From assembly GCA_019745365.1 (NCBI GenBank), contig JAIETI010000140.1:1-32431 (forward strand): DNA of 32,431 nucleotides, given 5' to 3'. Source of the DNA: Gemmatimonadaceae bacterium. GTDB taxonomy: Bacteria > Gemmatimonadota > Gemmatimonadetes > Gemmatimonadales > Gemmatimonadaceae. The notes beneath the pieces were generated by a model, which ran no database searches, had not been told where the DNA came from, and saw only the letters and a program-made list of their open reading frames with translations. Shown piece by piece: positions 1,540 through 4,226 of this stretch (the stretch's first letter is position 1; every line of letters starts with the position of its first letter). Position numbers and translations under genes: made by a program.

Positions 1540-2151
1540 ATGCAGCTCCTCCTCTTGCTGGGACCCTGGATGAAACCTGTGCTTCTCGTCGCCGCCGCGC
1601 TCGCCGCGGTGGCCATCGGCAGCCGCCCCGTCGCGGCGCAGGACGCGGAGAAGATCGGACCGCAGGTCGGCGATGTCGCGCCCGATTTCGCGCTCCCCGC
1701 AGCCTCCAAGGATGGCGTCGCGGCCAAGCAGATCCGCCTCTCCGATCTGAAGGGCAAGCTCGTGGTCATCTCCTTCTTCCCGAAGGCGCGGACCAAAGGC
1801 TGAACCGTGCAACATGAGGCGTACCGGGATCAGTACGCCACGATCTTCAACAACGGCACCGGCGTCGTCGCGCTGAGCATCAGCCACGACGAGGCGGGTG
1901 AGTTGGCGAGTTGGGCCAAGGAGTCGGGATTCCCGATGCTCTTCGCGAGCGACACCACGCGGCAGGTGGCGGAGGCGTACGCGGCGGAAGGAAAGGGGAT
2001 CGGTCCGATGAAGAACTTCTACCAGCGTGTCGTGTTCGTGGTCGGCAAGGATGGACGGATCGCGCATGTGATCCGCCCCTTCCCCGCCCTCTCGCCGAAC
2101 GGGTACAAGGAGCTCGAGACGGTCATCGACTCCTTGAGCGCGAAGAAGTAG
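1540..2151 (+). CDS. Exported selenocysteine peroxiredoxin (in-frame TGA at 1801-1803)
   Basis: A PrxQ/BCP-like peroxiredoxin of 203 residues, expected to reduce H2O2 or organic peroxides outside the cytoplasm. A hydrophobic signal peptide ends near VAAQ (about residue 34), and the fold begins at GDVAPDFALP. The active-site motif PxxxTxxC reads P81-K-A-R-T85-K-G-TGA-T. The stop codon, codon 88, sits exactly at the peroxidatic cysteine, and the same frame continues for 115 residues of typical peroxiredoxin sequence, including conserved R163 in QRVVFVVGKDG. I therefore read TGA as selenocysteine. There is no cysteine anywhere in the protein. ATG 1540 was chosen because GGAGAG (1531-1536) lies 3 nt before it; ATG 1570 (MKPVLL) would give a more usual signal peptide. 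Alternatives are a base error for TGC or a broken gene. No selA, selB, selC or selD is in the window. Confidence 0.82.
1801..1839 (+). promoter_or_regulatory. Putative bacterial SECIS element: UGA plus downstream hairpin
   Basis: Fourteen nucleotides after the in-frame TGA there is a perfect 7-bp stem, GGCGTAC (1818-1824) with GTACGCC (1833-1839), closing the 8-nt loop CGGGATCA. The loop starts 21 nt after the TGA and has G at positions 2-4. Bacterial SECIS elements recognised by SelB lie inside the coding region just behind the UGA, with a small apical loop holding a G near its start roughly 16-37 nt away (rule recalled from the published bSECIS model). This hairpin fits. Folding energy and SelB binding were not tested. 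Confidence 0.68.
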
Positions 2152-2253: not shown

Positions 2254-3186
2254 ATGCCGCGCCCGCCCTTCACCGTCGCGATCGTCCAAGACGCTGCCTC
2301 CGACGATCCCACTGCTACACTCGCTGCGACCATCGCCCGCATCCGTGAGGCGAAAGCCCGCGGCGCGCAGATCGTCTGCCTCAAGGAACTCTTCAACGCG
2401 CCCTACTTCTGCAAATCGCTGAAGGCGGAGCGATTCAACCTCGCGGAACCGATCCCGGGACACACGACCGACGTCCTCCGCGCCTTGGCCGCAGAACTCG
2501 AGATCGTGATCGTCGTCCCGATGTACGAGCGCGAGGCACCCGGCGTCTATCGGAACTCGGCGGCCATCATCGACGCTGACGGCACGCTGCAGGGCGTGTA
2601 TCGCAAGATGCACATCCCGCACGACCCGCTCTTCGAGGAGAAGTACTACTTCGCGCCCGGCGACACCCAGCCCGTGCAGCCCGCGGGGCTCCGCGGCCCG
2701 GCACGCCAAGCGGGTGGCTTCATGGTCTGGAAGACGCGCTACGCCAACATCGGCGTCCTCATCTGCTGGGATCAGTGGTATCCCGAGGCCGCGCGCATCA
2801 CCGCGCTCCTTGGCGCCGACATCCTCTTCTACCCGACGGCGATCGCGTGGCATCCGGGGGAGAAGGCGGAGTGGGGCGCAGCGCAGGTGGACGCGTGGCG
2901 CACCGCCCAACGCGCGCATGCGATCGCCAACGGCGTCTTCGTCGCCGCGCCGAATCGCGTCGGCTTCGAGGCCGAACCGGGCACCGAGGGGCTCGAGTTC
3001 TTCGGACACTCCTTCATCGCCGATCCCTACGGGCGCTACATCGCACAGGCGGACCACAACGATGAGGCGATCCTGGTGGCGACCTGCGATCCGGAGCTGA
3101 TCGAGTACACCCGACGCAACTGGCCCTTCCTTCGCGACCGTCGCGTGGACGCCTACAAGCCGATCGTGAACCGTTGGATCGGATGA
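2254..3186 (+). CDS. aguB: N-carbamoylputrescine amidase
   Basis: Nitrilase-superfamily hydrolase, 310 aa, converting N-carbamoylputrescine to putrescine, CO2 and ammonia in the cytoplasm. The Glu-Lys-Cys triad is visible: E45 in CLKELF, K118 in YRKMHIP and C171 in LICWDQWYPE. The signature HDPLFEEKYYFAPGD and the C-terminal RRNWPFLRDRR are typical of AguB rather than of beta-ureidopropionase. Length is normal for the family. Its stop overlaps the start of aguA (ATGA at 3183), so the two enzymes of the agmatine route are translationally coupled. A -10-like box just before the ATG suggests a leaderless transcript. Confidence 0.96.
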   Translation: MPRPPFTVAIVQDAASDDPTATLAATIARIREAKARGAQIVCLKELFNAPYFCKSLKAERFNLAEPIPGHTTDVLRALAAELEIVIVVPMYEREAPGVYRNSAAIIDADGTLQGVYRKMHIPHDPLFEEKYYFAPGDTQPVQPAGLRGPARQAGGFMVWKTRYANIGVLICWDQWYPEAARITALLGADILFYPTAIAWHPGEKAEWGAAQVDAWRTAQRAHAIANGVFVAAPNRVGFEAEPGTEGLEFFGHSFIADPYGRYIAQADHNDEAILVATCDPELIEYTRRNWPFLRDRRVDAYKPIVNRWIG

Positions 3187-4226
3187 GCGGCGCCGTCCGT
3201 TGGCCCGCGGAGTGGGAACGCCACGCCGCGACCTGGATCGGGTGGCCGCATCACGAGCCGGATTGGCCGGGGAAGTTCGAGCCGATCCCGTGGGTGTACG
3301 CGGAGATCGCGCGCGTGCTCGCGCGCAGCGAGCAGGTGGAGATCCTCTGCCACGATGCCTCGGTGCTCGAGGACGCGGAGGCGTGTCTCACCGCGCACGC
3401 TGTCCCGATGGATCGGGTGCGCTTGCACACGCTCCCGACGGATCGCGTCTGGCTCCGCGACTCGGCGCCGACGATGGTCGAGCGCGACGGCGCGCTCTCG
3501 TGGACGAACTGGGATTTCAACGCGTGGGCCAAGTACGACGACTTCGCGCGCGACCAACGGATTGGGGCGCACATCGCGTCGATCACCGGGACGCCGCGCA
3601 CGGAACCGGTGCGCGCCGACGGGCGCGGGCGCGTGGTGCTTGAAGGCGGTGGGATCGAGACCGATGGGCGCGGCACGATGCTCGTCACCGAGGAGTGGCT
3701 CCTCTCCGACGTGCAGGTGCGGAACCCCGGCTTCACCCGCGCCGACTACGAGGCGCTCTTCGCCGCTGAGCTCGGCTGCACCAAGACGATCTGGCTCGGC
3801 GAAGGGTGCGTCGGCGACGACACGCATGGGCATGTGGATGACATCGCCCGTTTCGTCGCACCCGGCGTCGTCGTGCTCGCACATGAAGAGGACGCTGCCG
3901 ATGAGAACCATCGTCGCTCGGCCGACAATCTCCGCCGTCTGAAGGGGGCGACGGACGCGTGGGGCGAGCCGATCCGCGTGATCACCCTCCCCTACCCTCG
4001 TGCGGTGGTGATGGACGGCCAGCGGCTCCCCGCGAGCTACGCGAACTTCTACATCGCCAACGGGAGCGTGCTCGTCCCCACCTTCAACGACGCGAACGAT
4101 CGCGTCGCACTGAACACGCTCGCGGAGTGCTTCCCCGACCGCGAGATCGTCGGGATCCACGCCGTGGATCTCGTCTGGGGGCTCGGCACGGTCCATTGCC
4201 TCTCGCAACAACAGCCTGCGCTCTAG
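3183..4226 (+). CDS. aguA: Agmatine deiminase
   Basis: Peptidyl-arginine-deiminase-type (PPAD) enzyme, 347 aa, hydrolysing agmatine to N-carbamoylputrescine and ammonia. Family signatures are WIGWPHHEPDW near the N-terminus, the substrate-guiding VWLRDSAPTM, LEGGGIETDGRGT, the histidine motif GHVDD, and the nucleophile C339 in GTVHCLSQQQP. ATG 3183 was chosen because it overlaps the aguB stop; a TTG nine bases earlier is possible but less likely. With AguB it makes putrescine from agmatine. The arginine decarboxylase that would supply agmatine is not in the window. Confidence 0.96.
   Translation: MSGAVRWPAEWERHAATWIGWPHHEPDWPGKFEPIPWVYAEIARVLARSEQVEILCHDASVLEDAEACLTAHAVPMDRVRLHTLPTDRVWLRDSAPTMVERDGALSWTNWDFNAWAKYDDFARDQRIGAHIASITGTPRTEPVRADGRGRVVLEGGGIETDGRGTMLVTEEWLLSDVQVRNPGFTRADYEALFAAELGCTKTIWLGEGCVGDDTHGHVDDIARFVAPGVVVLAHEEDAADENHRRSADNLRRLKGATDAWGEPIRVITLPYPRAVVMDGQRLPASYANFYIANGSVLVPTFNDANDRVALNTLAECFPDREIVGIHAVDLVWGLGTVHCLSQQQPAL

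Follow-up and report, generated by a model that had tools for sequence, protein, structure and literature searches.

Does a TGA codon at the catalytic position of a peroxiredoxin gene end the protein, mark a damaged gene or encode selenocysteine (Sec)? The question is raised by a reading frame in a Gemmatimonadaceae genome, a 2.83-Mb MAG in 193 contigs that is 90.6% complete. The frame lies on contig C16, called the window here (32,431 nucleotides).

An in-frame TGA in a peroxiredoxin gene

The region from 1540 to 2151 is one open frame if the TGA is taken as a residue, and reads ...SFFPKARTKG-U-TVQHEAYRDQYA... across that codon. The features assigned to the locus are:

1570..2151, + strand: putative gene for a Sec-containing peroxiredoxin of about 193 residues, stop codon not counted, with the TGA taken as Sec
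1540, + strand: ATG, alternative and less likely start of the gene
1570..1641, + strand: predicted signal peptide MKPVLLVAAALAAVAIGSRPVAAQ, read by eye, ending in VAAQ
1801..1803, + strand: in-frame TGA forming the peroxidatic codon, taken as selenocysteine
1818..1839, + strand: putative bSECIS hairpin, 7-bp stem (1818-1824/1833-1839), MFE -11.8 kcal/mol
1825-1832, + strand: putative bSECIS loop CGGGATCA, 8 nt, with 21 nt between the TGA and the loop
2026..2028, + strand: conserved catalytic Arg codon (R131 in the numbering of alignment A1), placed by alignment
2149..2151, + strand: TAG, the true stop codon

The first-pass annotation had delimited the locus as 1540-2151. The single frame across the TGA stands, but the gene probably begins at ATG 1570, which is a more likely start than ATG 1540 because close relatives begin within a few residues of that methionine. 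Other disruptions, which would be a sign of a pseudogene, were looked for, and the frame contains neither a frameshift nor a second stop. In an alignment with 28 orthologues (A1, 29 rows), the TGA fell in the peroxidatic Cys/Sec column, exactly where it had been proposed to lie. Cys or TGA had been expected in homologues at this column, and both, and only these, occur there. The PxxxTxx(C/U) motif is present in the window protein as P-K-A-R-T-K-G-U. Residues T53, U/C56 and R131, the last being the catalytic arginine, are invariant in the 29 rows (numbering of the first row of A1).

A scan for consensus promoters and terminators around the gene found none. Elsewhere in the window, an N-carbamoylputrescine amidase-like gene (2254-3186) and an agmatine deiminase-like gene (3183-4226), both under the NCBIfam cut-offs, are adjacent and form a putative putrescine pathway pair.

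The predicted protein

The read-through protein matches PF00578 (AhpC/TSA, 1.5e-25) and PF08534 (Redoxin, 4.4e-18) across the TGA, in agreement with the earlier proposal of a peroxiredoxin domain that continues past this codon and includes the conserved arginine. An AlphaFold2 model (pLDDT 92, pTM 0.88) has Bcp/PrxQ proteins as its best PDB fold matches, with TM of about 0.8. The Bcp/PrxQ thiol peroxidases (among them PDB 2ywn/4g2e, 3hjp, 5enu) are also the nearest solved structures by sequence; they differ from the window protein in having Cys for Sec, at 23-28% identity. Both domain and fold are thus those of an AhpC/TSA, Bcp/PrxQ-like peroxiredoxin.

The relatives' peroxiredoxins have a hydrophobic leader similar to the predicted signal peptide of the window protein and likewise ending in -AQ. 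The window protein has no second (resolving) cysteine, and none occurs in the mature region of the 55 Sec and 24 Cys copies compared. The two-Cys PrxQ class was considered and rejected, since an intramolecular resolving Cys is lacking. The protein also differs from PrxU, scoring 40.6 bits against the NCBIfam model (NF040737), under the curated cut-off of 270.

Distribution of the TGA form

The family search gave some peroxiredoxin match in 59 of 59 genomes, and the phylum search gave an orthologue match at E <= 1e-20 in 167 of 200. Most of the best matches, in the family and in the phylum, carry exactly one TGA, which bears out the view that a chance nonsense mutation was unlikely. Base-level inspection of individual TGA copies placed the TGA at the peroxidatic codon each time. 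TGA at this column is shared by 55 distinct Sec sequences, which represent several families within the phylum. Two pattern matches judged to be due to chance, L106 on the + strand and L043 on the - strand, do not enter the statistics. Several genomes carry a Sec and a Cys copy in tandem (loci L045, L032, L096, L100, L102, L108 and L112).

A hairpin downstream of the TGA

Published criteria for a bSECIS element are a loop of 3-9 nt, a stem of 4-16 bp, a G among the first two loop nucleotides, a UGA-to-loop distance of 16-37 nt, and an MFE <= -7.5 (PMC13188914). The window hairpin lies within all of these limits, with G at loop position 2. Taken singly it is weak, as 276 of 5000 synonymous shuffles of the window gene fold equally well, and this counts against it; in Rfam, no family fits the hairpin.

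The comparison of relatives is far more telling. Among Sec copies, synonymous codon identity (same-residue pairs) is 0.91 in the hairpin codons, +6 to +12 from the TGA, against 0.60 elsewhere; in Cys copies it is 0.58 in the hairpin codons and 0.58 elsewhere. The codons GCG (+6), TAC (+7), CAG (+10) and TAC (+11) are found in 46/46 Sec copies of the codon-identity set. Mean hairpin MFE is -11.5 for Sec copies and -4.8 for Cys copies, and all of the inner 6 bp can form in 54/55 Sec but only 3/24 Cys copies (Fisher 6e-15, kinship ignored). The outer pair of the hairpin is formed in 46/55 Sec copies, as G-C in 40, U-A in 3, C-G in 2 and A-U in 1. The loop is CGTGATCA in 43 of the 55, CGGGATCA in 11, the window included, and CGTGACCA in 1. 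We regard the putative SECIS hairpin as the strongest single evidence for Sec that these sequences offer, and the comparison across relatives as decisive.

Sec machinery of the host and its relatives

A search of the genome for selA, selB, selC and selD had been proposed in the first-pass annotation. The host has selB (377 bits), selA (547 bits) and selD (379.5 bits), all above the curated cut-offs. The tRNA-Sec gene (selC), on the other hand, was not found in the assembly with the Rfam model (150 of 490 candidates scored, a filter miss being possible), with ARAGORN on parts of the genome, with a DNA pattern or with a relative's tRNA-Sec. The host selD (L020; contig C93, 10264-11304) has an in-frame TGA of its own, in CAGUASKMG, followed by a hairpin. 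In relatives, selC lies directly 3' of selD or within ~0-150 nt downstream, and the gap is ~100-150 nt in two genomes from a related genus. Contig C93 stops 58 nt past the selD stop. The absence of selC from the assembly is therefore uninformative, because the contig breaks where relatives carry this gene, and we infer that selC lies in the unassembled gap after the host selD. The matched part of the host FdhA has no in-frame TGA, so the known selenoproteins of this host are the peroxiredoxin and SelD.

Across genomes, tRNA-Sec was found in 21/25 with a Sec form and in 1/17 with only the stop-free form (Fisher 5e-7, kinship ignored; host genome entered as negative, and G095, G106 and G211 left out). 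An above-threshold match in G047 proved to be a tRNA-Ser and was excluded from the count. G182 (L115), a single contig with a Sec peroxiredoxin and a Sec-SelD, has no recognizable tRNA-Sec near selD, which counts against the Sec reading; its selC is perhaps divergent or relocated. Also counting against that reading are G012 and G197, assemblies of a related genus that keep the Sec peroxiredoxin although neither selD nor tRNA-Sec was found in them. These have either assembly gaps at the selD/selC locus or a recent loss of Sec decoding.

Such a loss might be supposed for the host species as well, with selC gone and an ancestral selenoprotein gene now decaying, and both G012/G197 and the host's own assembly would agree with it. 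We consider this very improbable: the host selA, selB and Sec-SelD are intact, as are the hairpin and the peroxiredoxin protein, and the contig break falls at the site of selC in relatives. Still less credible is a pseudogene created by a nonsense mutation, or a TGA produced by sequencing or assembly error. The fragmented MAG and the missing selC would fit such an origin, but the identical codon is found in most relatives, in several families, and its presence in independent relatives excludes sequencing error. Moreover, the frame is intact apart from the TGA, and the downstream synonymous-site constraint is confined to TGA copies. Decoding of TGA as something other than Sec, whether through a suppressor tRNA or through reassignment of UGA in general, has an equally negligible probability. 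A sense TGA would indeed leave the frame open, but the catalytic-Cys codon alone is affected, the alternative residue is Cys, the host has selA, selB and selD, and tRNA-Sec (anticodon TCA) tracks the TGA form across genomes.

The selenocysteine peroxiredoxin first suggested for this locus is thus supported by the catalytic TGA, selA/selB/selD, the constrained hairpin and conservation across the phylum. Judged from sequence, the product of the locus is almost certainly a peroxiredoxin exported to the periplasm or the surface, with selenocysteine as the peroxidatic residue; the window protein would then incorporate selenium, be exported and have peroxidase activity. SelB, carrying Sec-tRNA-Sec, would bind the mRNA hairpin, whose loop is 21 nt past the UGA, and insert Sec at residue 78 (counted from ATG 1570). 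In the exported enzyme the selenolate would reduce peroxides and become a selenenic acid. Lacking a second cysteine, the oxidized enzyme would presumably need an outside thiol or reductase for its recycling (a 1-Sec mechanism).

Exchange of Sec and Cys and the active-site proline

A tree of 79 copies (midpoint root) needs 7 Sec/Cys label changes, at least 6 of which are forced by well-supported branches. Several Cys forms, among them L046/L049, L101/L103 and L126, are inside Sec clades and so, with the midpoint root, look like Sec-to-Cys replacements. The proline that peroxiredoxins conserve in the active site, 7 residues before U/C (loci L026-L137), is present in 24/24 Cys forms but in 24/55 Sec forms; the remaining Sec forms have F (17), Y (8), I (3), V (2) or S (1).

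Relation to known peroxiredoxins

Sec-containing Prx (COG1225 Bcp / PF00578, TxxU) form a recognized family of bacterial selenoproteins (PMC13188914, PMC9312934, PMC5029168), with 91 proteins counted in 78 organisms (PMC5029168). The bacterial Sec-Prx, including the Eubacterium acidaminophilum enzyme, resemble the window gene in domain, in TxxU, in UGA plus bSECIS and in Sel machinery. The window protein differs from them in its predicted signal peptide and its lack of a second cysteine, and its host phylum, Gemmatimonadota, is unnamed in the selenoproteome texts (PMC13188914, PMC9312934, PMC5029168). The Gemmatimonadaceae Cys orthologues (such as those of G022, G047, G111 and G016) are homologous at the equivalent position and also lack a second cysteine; they differ in having a Cys codon and a mostly eroded SECIS hairpin, and most lack tRNA-Sec. 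Subscription papers and supplementary tables aside, literature searches on selenoproteins or selenocysteine in Gemmatimonadota brought up no account of this case. Three features appear to be unreported: a phylum-wide exported Sec form without a second Cys, the repeated switches between Sec and Cys, and the absence of the active-site proline from more than half of the Sec forms but from none of the Cys forms.

The gene is probably annotated as truncated or as a pseudogene, though it is conserved across much of a soil and freshwater phylum. With its many naturally occurring Sec and Cys variants, tandem pairs within single genomes among them, this one enzyme provides a clean system for studying the benefit of selenium in an exported antioxidant enzyme, and the family is also suited to testing the constraint that a SECIS element places on coding sequence. 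Cultured Gemmatimonadota are mostly aerobic or microaerophilic. It is conceivable, though we would put it at a little under an even chance, that an ancestral exported 1-Sec peroxiredoxin is a main extracytoplasmic peroxide defence of Gemmatimonadota and that Sec has relaxed the requirement for the active-site proline. If so, the Sec/Cys switches would be a natural series for testing why Sec is retained.
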